A stretch of DNA of 64,000 nucleotides. Source: Rheinheimera lutimaris. Its GTDB lineage: Bacteria > Pseudomonadota > Gammaproteobacteria > Enterobacterales > Alteromonadaceae. The stretch spans positions 182,235 to 246,234 of the forward strand of contig NZ_JABSOD010000006.1 of assembly GCF_013283795.1 (NCBI RefSeq), given 5' to 3'. Position 1 is the stretch's first letter. Every line of letters starts with the position of its first letter. Below are positions 55,751-64,000 of the stretch, piece after piece. The notes under the pieces were generated by a model. The model was not told where the DNA came from and ran no database searches. It saw nothing but the letters and a program-made list of their open reading frames with translations. Made by a program: the position numbers and the translations under genes.

Positions 55751-55998
55751 TTGGTTTCCAACAAACGCTCCAGCTTGGTTTTGGCCATCACGTACAAGGT
55801 TACCGTTTCTTTTAACTCAGCATGGGCGCTTAGCAGCGCAGCATGCTTTTTTTCCAGTTCATCAAAATCTTTCTTTAACTGCACATATTCCGACAAGCCT
55901 TTAAAGATGGCTTTGGAGTAAGTAAGCTCAGCAGTCATACGCTGCGCTTTGGCTAAAATAGCCAGTTGTTCGTCATTGGGGCGAATAGTAAGTGCCAT
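55738..55998 (-). CDS. Small ribbon-helix-helix-like, coiled-coil protein
   Basis: An 86-residue protein of unknown function. The start MALTIRPNDEQLAILAKAQ resembles the N-terminal strand and first helix of a ribbon-helix-helix DNA binder. Residues ~38-75 are strongly heptad-like (LKKDFDELEKKHAALLSAH), so it probably forms a dimer. It is convergent with cvrA and ends ~150 bp from the dif-like site. It may be a chromosomal antitoxin-like or DNA-associated protein, but no partner toxin is adjacent. Confidence 0.6.
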   Translation of the reverse strand: MALTIRPNDEQLAILAKAQRMTAELTYSKAIFKGLSEYVQLKKDFDELEKKHAALLSAHAELKETVTLYVMAKTKLERLLETKAPD

Positions 55999-56144: not shown

Positions 56145-56172
56145 ATATCCTATAATGTATATTATGTTAAAT
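56145..56172 (+). other. dif-like XerC/XerD site, probable left attachment site of the prophage
   Basis: The 28-bp site can be split into XerC arm ATATCCTATAA, centre TGTATA and XerD arm TTATGTTAAAT. Centre and XerD arm equal the Escherichia coli dif as I remember it (TGTATA; TTATGTTAAAT). The XerC arm keeps only the inner ATAA clearly. Filamentous phages of the CTX type integrate at dif with host XerC/XerD. The phage repressor gene ends 5 bp to the right, which fits a phage-chromosome junction. Confidence 0.85.
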
Positions 56173-56177
56173 AGGCA

Positions 56178-56528
56178 TTAGGACGCAGCAAGGCTGCTGT
56201 CGTCACTTGCCGGAGTCGTCATTAGTCCCACTATCAGACTGATGCACGCCACCGCTCCGGCCAATCTCTTTAGTACTTTGGTAAACTCTTCTTTCAGTTT
56301 AGGCGTTGACGCCCTGTCTATGTCGAGCTTCACAAGCACTTCACCTATGTCTAGCCCGCATTTCTCCGCTATGAACATACCTTGCTCTGGCGTTAAGTGC
56401 CTTTCAGCTTTTTTAATTTCACTGATATTAGGCTGGCTTAGCTTTGGTATTTCCCTTGATAGAGCACTAAACGAGGCTATGCCCATTTTACTCATGTAAA
56501 TTTCAATCAACTCAAAGCTGTAGTTCAT
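56178..56528 (-). CDS. Phage repressor, XRE-like HTH with C-terminal hydrophobic segment
   Basis: A 116-residue protein, start at 56528 with AAGGG 8 bases upstream (a TTG two codons earlier is open). Residues ~18-55 look like a Cro/CI HTH (FSALSREIPKLSQPNISEIK). A hydrophobic stretch near residues 89-103 (AGAVACISLIVGLM) could touch the membrane. It is divergent from the early phage operon across the three palindromes, like RstR of CTX phage, so it is the probable lysogeny repressor. Repressor function is inferred from location. Confidence 0.75.
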   Translation of the reverse strand: MNYSFELIEIYMSKMGIASFSALSREIPKLSQPNISEIKKAERHLTPEQGMFIAEKCGLDIGEVLVKLDIDRASTPKLKEEFTKVLKRLAGAVACISLIVGLMTTPASDDSSLAAS

Positions 56529-56586
56529 TCTCAATACCCTTCTGACTTTTCGTAATTCTACTTCAAAAGAATAGAATTAACACCCA

Positions 56587-56662: not shown

Positions 56663-57103
56663 ATGAAACCGACACTAACCGCTCTAACCATCTTAGCTAC
56701 TGCTGACGGCATCAAGTCTGCCGTAGCTCTGTTAACCGCTAACGGTTTTACCCCGATTTTCAAAGGCAGCAACTTTTCTGACGGCTGGTACGAACTGCCG
56801 GAATTGAATTTCTGGATATTCCGTGACCGCATCTACGTTAACGTACACTCTAACCCGGCAAGCACACTGGCCACTGTGGCCCTTAAGTTACACGCTCAGC
56901 AGCAGGACTCGGCTATACAGGTTCCAGCCTCTGCCTCTCCTGTTGTTGAGCACCCTGTTATACAGCAACCATCCACAGAATCTGTGGATAACAAATTTCT
57001 CTCTGTCATTTCTGCTGCATTATCCAAGCCTGAGGTTTTACGCTCAATTCGCCGTACAGAGCTTCGCCTCAAACGCTCACAAGCCAAGGGCCATACAGCA
57101 TGA
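56663..57103 (+). CDS. Early inovirus protein, unknown function
   Basis: A 146-residue protein, first gene after the operators. The N-terminal ~75 residues form a compact, partly hydrophobic domain (LTALTILATADGIKSAVALL, then FKGSNFSDGWYELPELNFWI). The rest is a Q/P/S-rich linker and a basic tail (IRRTELRLKRSQAKGHTA) that may bind nucleic acid. I recognise no family. The stop overlaps the next start (ATGA at 57100), so it is translationally coupled to the small membrane protein and then to the replication gene. Confidence 0.75.
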   Translation: MKPTLTALTILATADGIKSAVALLTANGFTPIFKGSNFSDGWYELPELNFWIFRDRIYVNVHSNPASTLATVALKLHAQQQDSAIQVPASASPVVEHPVIQQPSTESVDNKFLSVISAALSKPEVLRSIRRTELRLKRSQAKGHTA

Positions 57104-57273
57104 GCGACGGAACTGCATATTTCGGCCTTTTTGGCTTTTTACTCCTCATATCCGGCTTTAAATTAGGTGAAAAATACCTTTATTCACGCAGTGTTACCTG
57201 TCTGATTTTTTGCGTTTCTCTACTTTTATCGGCCCTCTGCTTTTTCGTTTTAGCGTTAAGGTTTGCAGCATGA
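57100..57273 (+). CDS. Small two-helix membrane protein of the phage
   Basis: A 57-residue frame starting ATG AGC GAC GGA, with two hydrophobic stretches (AYFGLFGFLLLISGF, then VTCLIFCVSLLLSALCFFVL) joined by a charged turn GEKYLYSR. It overlaps both neighbours by the ATGA motif (57100 and 57270), strong evidence that it is translated. Function unknown; immunity or superinfection exclusion, or a membrane anchor for replication, are possibilities. Confidence 0.7.
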   Translation: MSDGTAYFGLFGFLLLISGFKLGEKYLYSRSVTCLIFCVSLLLSALCFFVLALRFAA

Positions 57274-58457
57274 CTTTCCCTGTCAATGCAGTAATGCCCA
57301 CAGAGGGCTTTTTCATTGACAAGCTAAACGTCTATCAGGTGCATGACGCTGATTTGCCATTCATCGGCAAAAACGGCGCTATCGATTTCGACCTGCTGAC
57401 CGGCGAAACCGACGACGCATTAAAAATCAAAGGCAAGTTGCCTATCATGGCCAGTTACAGCACCTCTATACGGGTGCACTGTGACGGCAACCGTGTTTAC
57501 GTAGAGGGCAACCCTTCCCGTTTTGGCCGCTGTGAAAATCTCTTTGGCTTCACGTGTATAGACGACTGCATAGCTGTTTATAACCACGTTTTACGCTCAC
57601 TGGGTTTGCCACCCTTCACAGTTGGCCGCTTTGAGTTCCTGCAGGGCAAGGACGGCGAAAAACAGCGCAAGACCTACACCGGCGCAATTATCACGCATAT
57701 CGACATTACCAAAAACCATATGGTTGGCGAGGGCGACGAATACGCTTTCCTGCGCGCCATAAGCACCCTGTCACTGCCAAACGGTAAACACCCGTATTTG
57801 TACCCTAACGGCGCCACAGTCGATTTCAGCACGTCTAAGTGCGGTCGTGGCAGCAGCTGGGATTACACCAAGTTTTACATTAAGCATATCGACCTGCTGG
57901 ATAAGCAGAAATCCAACCTTAAAGACGCAACCGACGAAGACTGTGACTACTACCAAAAGGTAATTGAACACTGTCAGGCAAACGGTGTTATCCGTGAAGA
58001 ACACTCATTTAAAAGCAAGAAGTTGCAGCGTTACGACCTCTGTTACTACGGTTTCGTTACCGTAGAAAAACTCGTAAATCACCCGACGCTGACAACACTC
58101 GAGAAGCTGACTAAAACGCTGGAGGCAGCAACTATGGATTACGTAACCATCGCAGACCAGTTACTGGCTAAAAAAATTGTCACCAGTCGTCAGGCGGCGA
58201 ACGCAACTCAGAGCATGGCTATGTCATGGCTCAATGACCCGCGATTCAACGATAAGACGGCCAAAACATCAACCTATTACGTGCACAAAAAGCGCTTATT
58301 GGCATTGGGTTTGGATATATCCATCCCGTTCCGCGCTGACCGTAATGTCCTGCCAATGATACGCAACCAGCGCGAAATTACGCGCTTTGAGTACCGCGAC
58401 CAGCCCAGCTGGTACAGGGCACCCACTACCCAACCCCGTTTTCAGTTAATCGCTTAG
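57270..58457 (+). CDS. Phage replication initiator, II/X family
   Basis: A 395-residue protein. The start at 57270 overlaps the previous stop (ATGA); the frame is open upstream but lacks support. It has the features of the Phage CRI/X family (gpII-like, RstA-like): N-terminal GFFIDKLNVYQVHD, VGRFEFLQGKDGEKQ, AIITHIDITKNH and SSWDYTKFYIKHIDLL. These initiators nick the double-stranded form to start rolling-circle replication. Length is usual for inoviruses. Confidence 0.9.
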   Translation: MTFPVNAVMPTEGFFIDKLNVYQVHDADLPFIGKNGAIDFDLLTGETDDALKIKGKLPIMASYSTSIRVHCDGNRVYVEGNPSRFGRCENLFGFTCIDDCIAVYNHVLRSLGLPPFTVGRFEFLQGKDGEKQRKTYTGAIITHIDITKNHMVGEGDEYAFLRAISTLSLPNGKHPYLYPNGATVDFSTSKCGRGSSWDYTKFYIKHIDLLDKQKSNLKDATDEDCDYYQKVIEHCQANGVIREEHSFKSKKLQRYDLCYYGFVTVEKLVNHPTLTTLEKLTKTLEAATMDYVTIADQLLAKKIVTSRQAANATQSMAMSWLNDPRFNDKTAKTSTYYVHKKRLLALGLDISIPFRADRNVLPMIRNQREITRFEYRDQPSWYRAPTTQPRFQLIA

Positions 58458-58467
58458 GAGCAATAAC

Positions 58468-58827
58468 ATGGCTACAGATACGTTTATTTTACTGTCGGTT
58501 TCAGCCGGCATCATGGAAGAAAAAGGCCGCGACCCGATGCCGTATGCATCAATTGAAGTCGCCAACGTCCGCGCAAAAGACAGCAGCCGCGATGGCCGTG
58601 TGGTGTATGGCTCGCCGGTGTTAAAGCTCAAACTCATTGACGAGCAAACCGGCCTGCCGAATATCCAGTTGGCCAAGGCGCTGGCCAAAGCCGATTGCTA
58701 CGGCAAGCCGGTAAATTTCAGTGGTGTTTATGAGCTGGCCAAAGTCAAAGGCGTTGAGCAAATGACATTCACCGTACTGGATGCCGAGCTTGACGCTAAG
58801 CCGGTTCCTGTTAAGGCCGCCAGCTAA
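58468..58827 (+). CDS. Probable phage ssDNA-binding protein (gpV-like)
   Basis: A 119-residue beta-rich protein directly after the replication gene (10-bp gap, AGGAGC upstream), the position of the ssDNA-binding protein in filamentous phages. Visible are alternating strands (VYGSPVLKLKLI, QMTFTVLDAELD) and several aromatic and basic residues. Function is inferred from order and size, not from a certain family match. Confidence 0.65.
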   Translation: MATDTFILLSVSAGIMEEKGRDPMPYASIEVANVRAKDSSRDGRVVYGSPVLKLKLIDEQTGLPNIQLAKALAKADCYGKPVNFSGVYELAKVKGVEQMTFTVLDAELDAKPVPVKAAS

Positions 58828-59084: not shown

Positions 59085-59222
59085 ATGGACTTTACAGCAA
59101 TCACAGGCGCCGTTGATGGTGCCGTAGTAGTAGCGGGTTTAGGCGCAATTGCAGCAATTAAAATTCTGCCTGTTGCCGCCAAATGGGGTTACGGCAAAGT
59201 TATCAGCATGCTGGGCCGTTAA
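59085..59222 (+). CDS. Major coat protein, 45 residues, leaderless
   Basis: Reads MDFTAITGAVDGAVVVAGLG and continues to a basic end WGYGKVISMLGR. Acidic residues Asp2 and Asp11 are in the N-terminal part, a hydrophobic core spans about residues 9-32, and Lys33, Lys38 and Arg45 are C-terminal, the charge layout of filamentous-phage pVIII. There is no signal peptide, as in phage Pf3 coat (44 residues), suggesting YidC-dependent insertion. AAGGATAA precedes the start and a strong terminator follows the stop, both typical of the abundant coat gene. Confidence 0.85.
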   Translation: MDFTAITGAVDGAVVVAGLGAIAAIKILPVAAKWGYGKVISMLGR

Positions 59223-59267: not shown

Positions 59268-59348
59268 ATGGTTTGGGCATTGGCAGTTTTCGTATTGGGA
59301 GCAATAACCGGTGAATGTATCGTCAGAGGTTTTAGTACACGAAATTAA
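59268..59348 (+). CDS. 26-residue single-helix phage peptide
   Basis: Starts MVWALAVFVLGAITGECIVR and ends GFSTRN. A hydrophobic N-terminal helix with a basic C-terminus and GAGG upstream (TTGAGGTGTATATG) make it a plausible small coat protein like gpVII or gpIX (~32 residues). It overlaps the first 38 bases of the pIII-like gene in another frame, which argues for coupling. Too small to identify by sequence. Confidence 0.5.
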   Translation: MVWALAVFVLGAITGECIVRGFSTRN

Positions 59349-61092
59349 GCGGCTTTCAGCCGCTATCTATCGCCGGCTTATTGCCTGGCTGTTATATCTG
59401 GTAAAACACCCCGTTAAAATCATCGTTTTCATCATCAAAGCCTACCTGCTGCTAATGCTGTTCGCGTTTTTTCTGGCATTTTCATTTGGGTCATTTGCAC
59501 AAGAGGCACCGCCACCAGCTTGTACAGAGGGCGGCCAGTGGATACCTGAATTGCAGGGCTGCGGTATCGTAAAGCCCGAGCAGGCTTGTAAAGTTACTAA
59601 CGTTCGAGGCCCAACTACTTCCGGCCCATACACGCAAGTTGATAGACCAACCGTTTCATCGTACAACAATTATATTTCATCATTTTCTTATGGTGATCCT
59701 TCAGTCACACCAACTTGTCCTGGCACCGCCCAATTCGGTAATTACACAAGTGATTTGGAATTCACTTGTTCGGACCCCGGTTCTTTTGTTGTTCCTTTTG
59801 AAATAACCCGTCATAACACCCTTAAAGTTAGACAATTACCACAATGGGCTCAACAGTGCGACCCAATGACCACTACTTCTACCAGCACTAATGCTTTTTC
59901 TGTTCCTATTACTGCGCGCATTACAGTAATTTTATCGGACGACGTTGAATGTGAAGCCCCTTATCCGCTGGAAGGTCAAGCCGGATCAAACACATATTGT
60001 TACTACGTGCCTCAAGAGCCTTGTGACTGCTCTGAATTAAACGGTGAAGGCTCCTACACATATCAAAGTTTTTTAGCGTCTCCTGACGCTTACAGTCAGG
60101 AAAACCCTCCTCAATGTTTGAGCGTCCGCGATAGTGCCGACCCGTCTATACCATCGTGTGATTGCCAGATATTGGCTACAAGGTGGTTTTCTCAGATAGC
60201 CAACGTTAACGGCGTTGAAATGGTTCGCTGGCAACCTTTACCGGGCTTAAATGGCGGTGAAAGTGGTGTATTTACCGGCGCTGCCTGTGGCGAGGAAGAG
60301 TCTACAACCCCGCCGGCTGAAAAAGAAAACTGCGTCACCATGAAAAACGGCCAAAAATTATGCGTCGCAAAAAAAGCTGAAAAATGCATCACGCTTGACG
60401 GTGTTCAACAGTGTGAAGCAGGTTGCGGCACTATTAACGGCGAGTTTATGTGTGCTGAAAGTGACCAGCCCGGCGCACCTGACCCGGACGAGCCTGACGT
60501 CGAGCCTGATGATGAAGTCGAAGACCCGGACAAAACAACTGAGCAAATGACCAAGCAGGACTATAAAGACGTCAACAAAGGAATTGAAACCCGCTTAGAT
60601 TTACTGGCCCAACTCATGGAACGGCAGACCGGTCAAACAACAGTTGGCGGCGCTGCTAATGGTTCAAAAATTGATGCTACTAACAGAATGCTCGGCTCTA
60701 TCGACGGTAAGTTAAGCGAACTTATTGCACAGGGCGAAGGTGGCGAGGATGGTGGCGACGATAGCAACCCGCAGCCGGACTATTCAACAGATGCCCTTGA
60801 AGAGTTCGTTAACCCTAACGATTGGGAGCAGCGCAACTTTGGCACTGTTTTACAGGCTTCTGTCGAACGCATGCAGCAAGCGCCTGTTTTCACTGCTGTT
60901 GAATCATTTTTTGATGTCAGCATAACCGGCACCTGTCCAACGTGGCAGACAAACGTTTCTTTGTTTGGTGCTAGTTTAGACATTAACATTGACCAGTTTT
61001 GCTCCCCCGAAATGACCAATATTTGGCTGATAATCCGAGCAGTGTTGTTACTTGTTTTTTCTTATTACGCTTTTAGAGAGGCTATTTTATGA
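59311..61092 (+). CDS. pIII-like adsorption / minor coat protein (TspB-like layout)
   Basis: A 593-residue protein starting GTG (GGGAG 8-9 bases upstream). The N-terminus is long: ~35 basic and hydrophobic residues before a hydrophobic signal core, with predicted cleavage after SFA at residue 63. The body has many cysteines, an acidic D/E/P linker near residues 390-410, a coiled segment (NKGIETRLDLLAQLMERQ), and a C-terminal cysteine domain ending in a membrane helix (IWLIIRAVLLLVFSYYAF). This is the layout of inovirus adsorption proteins, including the neisserial TspB type. It should cap the virion and bind the host pilus. The receptor is unknown. Confidence 0.85.
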   Translation: MNVSSEVLVHEIKRLSAAIYRRLIAWLLYLVKHPVKIIVFIIKAYLLLMLFAFFLAFSFGSFAQEAPPPACTEGGQWIPELQGCGIVKPEQACKVTNVRGPTTSGPYTQVDRPTVSSYNNYISSFSYGDPSVTPTCPGTAQFGNYTSDLEFTCSDPGSFVVPFEITRHNTLKVRQLPQWAQQCDPMTTTSTSTNAFSVPITARITVILSDDVECEAPYPLEGQAGSNTYCYYVPQEPCDCSELNGEGSYTYQSFLASPDAYSQENPPQCLSVRDSADPSIPSCDCQILATRWFSQIANVNGVEMVRWQPLPGLNGGESGVFTGAACGEEESTTPPAEKENCVTMKNGQKLCVAKKAEKCITLDGVQQCEAGCGTINGEFMCAESDQPGAPDPDEPDVEPDDEVEDPDKTTEQMTKQDYKDVNKGIETRLDLLAQLMERQTGQTTVGGAANGSKIDATNRMLGSIDGKLSELIAQGEGGEDGGDDSNPQPDYSTDALEEFVNPNDWEQRNFGTVLQASVERMQQAPVFTAVESFFDVSITGTCPTWQTNVSLFGASLDINIDQFCSPEMTNIWLIIRAVLLLVFSYYAFREAIL

Positions 61093-61412
61093 CAGCTATT
61101 AAACAGTGGTTTAAAGACCTTTGGAACGGCTTCGTAGAGTGGCTGGTAGAAGTCGTTATCCTGATACTTACCTTCTTAAAAGATATTGTTCTCACGCTGT
61201 TTGAGCTGCTTCTTGATGGCGTAGCCTATATGTTTGAACTGATATCGCCACCTGAATTTTTGGCAACCGGCCTTGGTTCGTTGTTTTCCGCTCTGCCTGA
61301 TTCCCTTAGCTACTTTTTAATGCAGTCAGGTCTTGCTGAGGGCTTAAGCATTTATGGTGCCGGTGTCACTTTCCGGCTGCTACGCAAACTTTTCACAATT
61401 GGCCAATGGTAG
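61089..61412 (+). CDS. pVI-like DUF2523 membrane protein
   Basis: A 107-residue hydrophobic protein, start overlapping the pIII-like stop by 4 bp (ATGA). Helices at about residues 14-50 (LVEVVILILTFLKDIVLTLF) and a C-terminal GAGVTFRLLRKLF. Position between pIII and Zot and size are those of DUF2523 proteins, the pVI equivalent that helps end the filament. Function is inferred from family and order. Confidence 0.85.
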   Translation: MTAIKQWFKDLWNGFVEWLVEVVILILTFLKDIVLTLFELLLDGVAYMFELISPPEFLATGLGSLFSALPDSLSYFLMQSGLAEGLSIYGAGVTFRLLRKLFTIGQW

Positions 61413-61421
61413 GTTTTAGCC

Positions 61422-62531
61422 ATGATTATATTCCACGAAGGATTGCCCCGCTCTGGCAAGAGCTATGAAGCGCTTGTTAAATGGATAATACCGGCCATAA
61501 AAAAAGGCCGTAAAGTTTATGCCCGTATTAACGGGCTTAACTATGAAAAGATTGCAGAGCTGTGCGATATAACGCTTGAGCGCTGCCAAGAACTGCTGAT
61601 ACACATACCTAAAGAACAGGTAATGACTATTTACGAGCATATTAGTAATGATGCGCTCGTAATTATTGATGAACTTCAAAACTTTTGTCCTAACGGCAGG
61701 CAAAAGCTGACCCCTGAAATGACCGCATTTATCGCTGAACACGGTCACAAGGGTTTAGACATAGTAACAATGGGCCAATCTTTATCTGATTGCCATAGTA
61801 CGTGGCGCAACCGAACAGAGCGTAAAATCCAGTTTTTAAAACTCAGCATGCTTGGCCTTGAAAAGCGTTATCAATGGACGTCTTACCAAGGCATTAACCA
61901 GGCTAACGGTTCTATTAAGTTTGTTAAGTCCAACACCGGAACGGCAACATATGACCAAAAGTACTTTGGTGCTTACGCGTCACATGAGGATGACACCGAA
62001 AATAAAGGTAATTTAGCCGACGCCAGGCTAAATGTATTTTCAAGCAAAGCGTTACGTTATGGTATTCCCCTGGCTATTGTTGCCGCAGGTTATGCCGTTT
62101 ATTACTTGTATGGTTTTTTTAATCCGGCAAGCGTAAAGGCAGAGCCTGTTGCCGCAACTCAGCTAAGCACGGTTCCTCAGCAAAAAACCGCTGAAGCTAA
62201 GTTGCAAGTCAGGTCTGAACCTGTGCGCCCCAGCTCGTATGATTTTGTTCAGTCAAACACTGAGCGTTACTCTGCTAAGCTCACTTACATGGCCGGTTAC
62301 CACGATTACATACAGGATTTTTTGGTCGTTTGGGAGGATAGCTCTGGCCGCATAATGGATCAGCTTTATTACGGTGACTTTAAGCAAGCTGGTTACACTG
62401 CATCTGCAAAAGGCAGTGGCGTCGAAGTCTCAAAGGGCAATGTTAAATTGTGGTTTCGCTTTATGCCGCCGCATGAGTCATATGGCCGCGTTCCGGTTCA
62501 AACCCAAGAGCAGTTAGTCACATCTTTGTGA
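61422..62531 (+). CDS. zot: Zot-family phage assembly ATPase (pI-like)
   Basis: A 369-residue protein. Walker A GLPRSGKS at residues 7-14 and Walker B ALVIIDE at 78-84 define the Zot/pI family. A single membrane helix is near residues 214-233 (YGIPLAIVAAGYAVYYLYGF) and a periplasmic C-terminal domain follows. It drives coat assembly and extrusion at the inner membrane. Start ATG 9 bp after the pVI-like stop. No pIV-type secretin gene was found in the window, so a host secretin may be used, as in CTX phage. Confidence 0.93.
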   Translation: MIIFHEGLPRSGKSYEALVKWIIPAIKKGRKVYARINGLNYEKIAELCDITLERCQELLIHIPKEQVMTIYEHISNDALVIIDELQNFCPNGRQKLTPEMTAFIAEHGHKGLDIVTMGQSLSDCHSTWRNRTERKIQFLKLSMLGLEKRYQWTSYQGINQANGSIKFVKSNTGTATYDQKYFGAYASHEDDTENKGNLADARLNVFSSKALRYGIPLAIVAAGYAVYYLYGFFNPASVKAEPVAATQLSTVPQQKTAEAKLQVRSEPVRPSSYDFVQSNTERYSAKLTYMAGYHDYIQDFLVVWEDSSGRIMDQLYYGDFKQAGYTASAKGSGVEVSKGNVKLWFRFMPPHESYGRVPVQTQEQLVTSL

Positions 62532-62603: not shown

Positions 62604-62961
62604 AAAAATCTGCAACCGCTGCCATCGATCGAACTGCTTTTGATGGCGAAGCCATGCAGCGAGCACGCGACGGAGGAGCGCGCACAGCGGGAACCAAACC
62701 ACCGCTTGGCTGCAGAAGTCTTTTTCGCGTAAAACCTGCCCTGCCGTTCAATCGGCGGCCGGTTCGCGCCCTGCCGAACCACAGCAGCGCAGCTGCATAA
62801 AATCTCTGGCGCAGCCAGGCATTAGATCGCTTTAGCGTTCCGCGCCCAGCGCGTTTTTCTCCGGCCGTCTCCGGCCCCGCAATTTTTTGCGTTTTCCCCC
62901 TTCTTAGCGCGTCTCCGCGCCTGCGATTTTTCCGGCTCAAAATACGGCGATTTGCACATGG

Positions 62962-63128: not shown

Positions 63129-63632
63129 GTGGCAAAAATCACGGCCTTTGTACTCTTTATAGGTAAAAAAGGAAGTTTTTACATCAAAATGTTACCGAAA
63201 AAGGAACAATTACCGGGCTTTTTGGACATGTATATTTCATGTTTTGGGTACTGGCAAAAACGGCACAAATTGGCAGCTGAATTCTTCGGTGTTTCAGAGC
63301 AAACTTGCAAGCGCTGGTGTGACACAAATACCCCCCCTTTGATGGCTCACAGATACCTTGCTGTACACTACAGGGGGTATTTACCGCTTATGGGCGGTTG
63401 GTCGCACTTTAGTATCGATTCAAAAGGCGTTCTTCATACACCGCACGGAAACTGCACGGCCGGTGACATCTCGATGATATGGCGCTATAAGTGGACAGCA
63501 GAACAGTCAGCAATTCAGCTCAAGGCCACAAGGGAAAAGCTCAAAGAGATAACCAACGGCACAAAATACAAAATGCTGTTGCATACTGCAGATTATCTGA
63601 ATAGGCTGGTAAAGGATTTTGCCGATTCATAA
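63129..63632 (+). CDS. Phage HTH-type regulatory protein (DUF3653-like)
   Basis: A 167-residue frame from a GTG at 63129; an ATG at 63189 gives 147 residues and may be the true start (GGAAG 13 bases upstream), as the first 20 residues look untypical. An HTH-like segment is RHKLAAEFFGVSEQTCKRWC, followed by PPLMAHRYLAVHYRGYLP. Such proteins (DUF3653 in Vibrio inoviruses) sit near the origin of filamentous phages. The C-terminal ~50 residues are helical (QLKATREKLKEITNG). Possibly a second regulator. Confidence 0.65.
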   Translation: MAKITAFVLFIGKKGSFYIKMLPKKEQLPGFLDMYISCFGYWQKRHKLAAEFFGVSEQTCKRWCDTNTPPLMAHRYLAVHYRGYLPLMGGWSHFSIDSKGVLHTPHGNCTAGDISMIWRYKWTAEQSAIQLKATREKLKEITNGTKYKMLLHTADYLNRLVKDFADS

Positions 63633-63936: not shown

Positions 63937-64000
63937 CTGTGCTTTTTAACCTCTGTCTCATTCGGTAATACACCCATTTTTAATTGACGCTAAAAGTAGA

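Follow-up and report, generated by a model that had tools for sequence, protein, structure and literature searches.

A filamentous prophage beside the intact dif site of Rheinheimera lutimaris, with a lone XerD half-site as its putative attachment site

Results

Gene content of the locus

The stretch of DNA analysed here, called the window, comprises 64,000 nucleotides of Rheinheimera lutimaris and is the final 64 kb of contig C48 in a 4.08-Mb genome assembly of 51 contigs (G000). Its dif site, the place at the terminus where sister chromosomes become unlinked, reads ATATCCTATAA/TGTATA/TTATGTTAAAT (XerC arm/centre/XerD arm), with the arms and centre that an initial annotation of the sequence had given, and a phage repressor gene ends 5 bp to its right by ORF coordinates, again in agreement with that annotation (Table 1). 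We take the centre and XerD arm to equal those of the E. coli dif. The genes that follow are those of a filamentous phage (Tubulavirales, inovirus), the Zot (PF05707), coat (PF25631) and Rep (PF05155) families all scoring over cut-off. The non-coding stretch at 62643-62942 is possibly a replication or packaging region. In agreement with the initial annotation, a scan of the prophage ORFs, excluding at least two small ones and the stretch past 64000 occupied by an insertion sequence, found no integrase gene. The host genome encodes XerD (377 bits, over cut-off) and a second Xer recombinase that falls below the XerD cut-off (295 bits) and is presumably XerC.

Table 1. Features of the dif locus and prophage (positions in the window unless a contig is named)
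Feature	Position	Strand	Evidence or remark
Host dif = attL	56145-56172	+	XerC arm 56145-56155; centre 56156-56161; XerD arm 56162-56172
Phage repressor, reading towards dif	56178-56534	-	phrog_638, E 1.1e-21
ORF without family match	56663-57103	+	
Rep, rolling-circle replication protein of the G2P/RstA kind	57270-58457	+	phrog_702, E 5.5e-70; PF05155 over cut-off
119-aa ORF without family match, putative ssDNA-binding protein	58468-58827	+	role from gene order and position
Small phage protein	58827-59084	+	phrog_2924, E 8e-9
Major coat protein	59085-59222	+	PF25631 (Inovirus_capsid), 37.1 bits, cut-off 27
Large virion protein, pIII-like by position	59311-61092	+	phrog_31956, E 6.2e-34 (phrog without assigned function)
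pVI-like minor virion protein	61089-61412	+	phrog_974, E 3.8e-15; PF10734 below cut-off
pI/Zot morphogenesis ATPase	61422-62531	+	PF05707 over cut-off
Non-coding stretch common to type A and type B prophages	62643-62942	.	blastn with L050, L051, L056, L057, L096
DUF3653-family gene, probably XafT-like (predicted XerD activator)	63189-63632	+	profile match and HMM
Cargo ORF, 94 aa	63652-63936	+	no Pfam match
Left end of multi-copy insertion sequence	63964-64000	.	interrupts the assembly; flank ATTC found again at the start of contig C51
attR XerD arm	G000:C51:177184-177194	minus	outside the window; XerD arm 10/11

Identity of the dif site and position of the terminus

The site at 56145-56172 is the native dif of the host, one base off a common form in the genus. 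The 17-bp core, made up of centre and XerD arm, is an exact match, and with as many as 3 mismatches allowed no other was found in the window (0.21 expected by chance). The exact core occurs once in the 4.08-Mb assembly, with 8 further matches that all have 3 mismatches; a backwards control pattern gave 7 matches in the same assembly. When 60 genomes were searched, the source assembly included, 51 carried the core with at most one mismatch, and the antiporter gene that precedes it in the window does so too at many loci of Rheinheimera and Arsukibacterium. The XerC arm at the relatives' dif is often ATATCCCATAA or ATAGCCGCTAA. Because these relatives carry the same site downstream of the same gene, we regard the window's dif as native with one base changed. 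The closest relatives by the flanking antiporter are Rheinheimera, with at most 95% protein identity. In one relative (L047) the homology to the window extends exactly to 56172, the last base of dif, and no such phage is present there.

In five relatives, four with single-contig genomes and one with two contigs, the distance from dnaA to dif is 0.487, 0.498, 0.485, 0.494 and 0.499 of the chromosome circle. All ten 20-kb bins to the left of dif in G026 have a positive GC skew and all ten to its right a negative one, and the maximum of the cumulative skew within 200 kb on either side fell 44 bp from dif. The octamer GGGNAGGG switches strand there as well (left, 6 plus and 0 minus; right, 1 plus and 5 minus). 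The window's own cumulative GC skew peaks at 55754. The placing of the terminus in the initial annotation is thus borne out, as is that of an inovirus at the true dif, with coat, Rep and Zot families next to a core unique in the assembly. A true dif elsewhere in the genome was considered and rejected on the unique core, the antiporter context, the position opposite dnaA and the switch in GC skew.

The only good dif-like site found in Rheinheimera sp. EpRS3 (L052:12140-12167) has both arms intact around the centre TCAATA in place of TGTATA, and the same match was also seen in G025 and G060. Such a centre could alter which phages can integrate.

The right end of the prophage

The window ends with contig C48 at the edge of an insertion sequence, and seven other contigs have its first 34-41 bases at their ends. 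The host DNA that comes after dif in L047 was found on contig C51, 138 bp short of the contig end. In the direction of the host DNA, C51 begins with the other end of the insertion sequence, ATTC, the GGGGCTTAAGCCCC hairpin, CGTCCA, TTATGTTAAGT and then host DNA; ATTC also directly precedes the insertion sequence in the window. The 4-bp flanks paired 6 of the 8 left with the 8 right ends of the insertion sequence, each pair being unique and ATTC among them, and two left and two right ends remained without a partner. Synteny and the shared 4-bp flank thus indicate that C48 probably continues into C51. From the C51 sequence and the ATTC flank we therefore obtain a prophage of about 7,852 bp, insertion sequence excluded, which ends on the right in a lone XerD arm (10/11), with a different centre, no XerC arm and no second dif. 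The second dif-like site that the initial annotation had proposed to look for beyond 64000 does exist as far as the XerD arm on C51 is concerned, but it is a half-site only and dif was not duplicated. The combination named there as speaking against its reading, a dif elsewhere together with no second arm, did not occur, since the other core matches have at least 3 mismatches and the second XerD arm lies on C51. Copies of the insertion sequence, at window position 63964 and on contigs C1, C12, C14, C23, C45, C51 and others, break the G000 assembly, and the 4-bp flanks are usable for scaffolding it.

Two mirror-image modes of integration

From the 51 core-bearing genomes we took 31 dif loci (same genus, 28; same family, 3); the other core matches were 19 genomes of the same order and G000 itself. 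Two kinds of element were seen at these and related loci. Type A elements, to which the window prophage belongs, lie to the right of dif, on its XerD side, with a XerD half-site at their far end and usually a DUF3653 gene. Type B elements lie to the left, on the XerC side, and run the other way; their far end consists of a XerC arm, an 8-bp centre beginning with TG and a XerD arm. The half-site of type A was found 8,043 bp from dif in G001, 8,282 in G007, 8,052 in G015 and 7,800 in G017; shorter elements have it at 2,351 (G009), 701 (G012) and 1,882 (G022), and L052, the window and the viral contig L197 complete the type. Type B was found in G009, G021, G022, G029, L083 and L080, the last being a partial element that does not include dif; both types are thus present in G009 and G022. 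The type A repressor is directed towards dif and the type A Rep away from it, and this order is mirrored on the left in type B wherever repressor, Rep and Zot were matched. Host sequence resumes after the half-site, as seen by comparing G015 with G002 and G017 with G003, where G002 and G003 have no full element at that place.

The loci of the 31 relatives (590,073 bases) contain 40 XerD arms in the orientation of dif, namely 31 dif and 9 element ends, and none on the other strand; the backwards pattern gave 1 match on both strands of the same bases. Arms with one mismatch to the right of dif in G014 and G011 and at L052:13178 were left off the attR list, having no hairpin before them. Related elements have left fragments to the right of dif in several relatives. 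Beyond attR, fragments of DUF3653-type and repressor genes occur in G007 (L135, 18866-19018 and 19784-19951) and in G015 (L148, 19055-19147 and 19631-19777), as if newer type A elements had pushed older ones away from dif.

The main phage genes (57270-62531 in the window, and those at the type B loci) point away from dif on either side and would, in both types, oppose the replication forks converging on dif. The half-site form beside a DUF3653 match was found in none of the 42 loci from a Zot scan, and a Rep scan of viral contigs gave no match; so far, the form is limited to this clade, L197 and the corticoviruses discussed below. Three Zot-bearing viral contigs (L203:8103, L206 and L207) have a XerC arm and a XerD arm around ATTACG, a centre quite unlike TGTATA.

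Structure of the junctions

At the left site, TGTATA is kept in 9 of the 10 type A loci, the exception being L052 with TCAATA; in L197 this site has the dif core and no recognisable XerC arm. At the ten attR sites, positions of the XerC arm match ATATCCCATAA, used as the single reference arm for all, at 1-5 of 11. Eight of the ten centres follow [CT][GT]TC[ACT]A; A stands at base 6 throughout, and at base 4 nine sites have C instead of the A of dif. The XerD arm is exact in seven of the ten, and the succession of hairpin, YKTCHA and XerD arm recurs at independent loci. The window prophage is arranged accordingly: dif on the left retains its XerC arm and centre, and the right end consists of the phage hairpin, the phage 'centre', the XerD arm and host DNA. 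The junctions fall at the same XerD arm across three Zot lineages.

An exchange by XerC at its own border would leave TGTATA at attR. This was seen in G017 only and in none of the other nine attR sites, so that the junctions place the type A exchange at the XerD border of dif, where it appears to have occurred. In G017 the exchange point is not distinguishable, its attR carrying TGTATA. Selection to keep dif functional could alone account for finding no other products, and the small homology at the XerD border, with base 6 of the centre alone common to dif throughout, counts against an exchange there. A folded attP as in CTXphi was rejected, inverted arms (at most 2 mismatches, within 300 bases of attP) being absent from the five loci checked.

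The DUF3653 gene

The DUF3653-type frame of the window encodes 148 residues and has 18 homologues at E at or below 1e-3. An alignment of the protein with its homologues matched an alignment of DUF3653 proteins from Vibrio and corticoviruses with 99.3% probability (E 1.1e-20), and the HMM match of the frame to DUF3653 had E 7.8e-17. The Pfam DUF3653 model gave no match on the window protein and none over cut-off in 37 genomes; membership in the family is therefore assigned by profile-profile comparison and HMM. The structure model was of middling confidence (pLDDT 75, pTM 0.50), and fold searches with it returned no match at E at or below 0.001 and a weak resemblance to helix-turn-helix (HTH) proteins; a PDB sequence search with the protein found nothing. 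The Vibrio phage PG21 (L165:1-417) has a protein labelled S-adenosylhomocysteine hydrolase that is a DUF3653 protein by Pfam. This label recurs in database names and looks wrong.

A DUF3653-type ORF detected by HMM (E at or below 1e-3) was present in 8 of 9 loci with the half-site and in 1 of 24 without it (exact test p 6e-7, with G035 taken as negative and shared descent ignored). These 33 dif loci are the 31 relatives, the window and L052, which was added for having the gene (7 of 8 without it); L067, L068, L076, L079, L082 and L083 were scanned for the gene outside this count. The gene-bearing locus without a half-site is G035, with a weak, divergent ORF (E 1.9e-4) to the left of dif, and the 701-bp remnant of G012 has the half-site and no DUF3653 ORF. 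With tblastn, short relics of the gene were found to the right of dif in G002 and G029, both without a half-site there, and extra fragments beyond attR in G007 and G015. All copies found, G035 excepted, thus lie on the XerD side. No DUF3653 gene was found in the left-hand stretches of the six type B loci, and one of these, L083, has a weak match just to the right of dif.

We take XafT of TLCphi to be a DUF3653 protein, and on this ground the window protein is probably a XafT-type activator of XerD. XafT is described as a phage-encoded factor that activates XerD (PMC9765430). The statement in the initial annotation that host XerC/XerD did the integration agrees with the presence of a host XerD and a second Xer and is probably incomplete, in that the phage carries this likely activator itself.

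Exchange of modules between phage backbones

The window repressor is 47-55% identical to five type A repressors and 27-29% to six of type B. The Rep tree divides differently: the window groups with type B G021 and G022 (bootstrap 100), and the remaining five type A Reps lie elsewhere. Three groups in the Zot tree are well supported and each of them mixes the types, namely the window with L080 (joined by the Alteromonas phage phiAFP1, the intended outgroup), G017 and L197 with G029, and G007 and G015 with G009. With types A and B intermingled in both trees, the side of integration goes with the module of attP, repressor and DUF3653 gene and not with the backbone, and this module seems to have been swapped between inovirus backbones.

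Discussion

The prophage resembles known phages that exploit Xer recombination and departs from each of them. Three classes of attP, those of CTX, VGJ and TLC, are distinguished (PMC4246890). With CTXphi the window element shares a filamentous phage with Zot at dif, but none of the five type A loci checked has a folded ssDNA site of inverted arms. TLCphi likewise uses the host Xer recombinases at dif without an integrase; however, it is a satellite whereas the window element is a full inovirus, and its attP has a dif-like XerC arm and centre with a poor XerD arm (PMC4246890), the reverse of what type A sites contain. VGJphi has a single attP of the dsDNA type with a centre matching dif on one side only (PMC5357621). 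Type B elements resemble this class, having in outline both arms and a centre that on the XerC side agrees with dif; type A mirrors it, with the XerD side kept, the XerC arm missing and the element to the right of dif. The Xanthomonas phages XacF1/Cf1c and UPphi are inoviruses that enter dif through host XerC/XerD, and by our reading of the papers their repeat comprises XerC-arm bases and centre without the XerD arm, from which the window element differs (PMC4076744, PMC7307601).

Similar sites were also seen in tailless phages. Two of three from Vibrio have a XerC-like arm, a longer centre and a XerD arm matching 10/11 of what we take to be the V. cholerae dif, and the third has no such dif-like site. 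In the corticoviruses Cr39582 and GXT1010 (L253:9828 and L255:7561) an exact XerD arm is accompanied by a poor XerC arm and the centre TTTATA, and this site starts 207 and 248 bp, respectively, before a DUF3653 gene or homologue. For PM2, a similar site was reported as presumptive dif (PMC9966536). The pairing of XerD arm and DUF3653 gene in the PM2-like corticoviruses is thus like that of type A, but they are tailless dsDNA phages and known here from their sequences.

The window element lies at dif, carries a dif-like site in the form of the XerD half-site, and has no integrase among the scanned ORFs. By these features it would be an integrative mobile element exploiting Xer (IMEX), with a predicted dependence on XerC/XerD. 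We consider it probable that the prophage of about 7.85 kb was integrated by host XerC/XerD at the XerD border of dif, by way of an attP with the XerD arm alone and with predicted activation by the phage's own DUF3653 protein. The exchange would take place at the XerD border of both dif and attP. By analogy with VGJphi and TLCphi, XerD would act first (PMC4246890, PMC5357621), and the junction might then be resolved by replication or by XerC. The DUF3653 protein may activate XerD or steady the imperfect synapse. Because dif stays intact, each new phage could insert beside it and push the older ones away. The XerD-side reading is supported by the phages without a detected DUF3653 gene, which lie on the other flank of dif, run in reverse and have a site with an 8-bp centre.

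Alternatively, the element might be an ordinary VGJ-like phage integrated by XerC, whose right-end site decayed later and whose DUF3653 protein is a regulator without a role in integration. VGJ-like sites do occur at the same dif in relatives, and weak HTH matches of the structure model are what a repressor would give. We nevertheless hold this to be unlikely, as decay leaves the recurrent hairpin, YKTCHA and XerD arm unexplained, TGTATA is missing from nine attR sites where XerC exchange should have left it, and the type B elements lie on the other side in the other direction. Slightly more doubtful still is a two-step integration as in TLCphi, by XerD and then XerC, on an attP whose XerC arm is degenerate and unusually spaced. 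Such a poor arm might be seen in the GCCCC stem of the hairpin, which lies about 11-16 bases from the XerD arm, and TLCphi itself integrates XerD-first with XerC completing the reaction (PMC4246890); the opposite make-up of its attP and the deviating base 4 of the type A centre, which is unfavourable to a second exchange, argue against it. That chance, or homologous recombination between old phage remnants near dif, produced the arrangement is very improbable: related fragments do lie to the right of dif in several relatives, but L047, without such a phage, aligns to exactly the last dif base, and the junctions meet at one XerD arm in three Zot lineages.

Integration at the XerD border with a half-site attP would be a variant of known Xer exploitation, none of the three classes keeping the XerD arm alone. 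An attP with only the XerD arm was not described as a class in the literature searched, which did not include the main TLCphi papers; of these, the 2019 study of XafT may list such sites. Tentatively, and with less confidence than for the window prophage itself, type A may represent a fourth way of exploiting Xer, the mirror of VGJphi, in which a bare XerD half-site with a hairpin serves as attP and entry on the XerD side relies on the phage's own DUF3653 activator. The module of attP, repressor and activator would be swapped between inovirus backbones, flipping side and direction, and corticoviruses would use a similar one.

Rheinheimera and its kin offer a natural experiment, in which phages with related replication or assembly genes sit on opposite sides of one dif, and dif is kept intact while elements accumulate on both sides. 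As the DUF3653 gene goes with one side of dif, these phages would allow a direct test of how XerD or XerC is chosen as the first catalyst and of the escape from FtsK.
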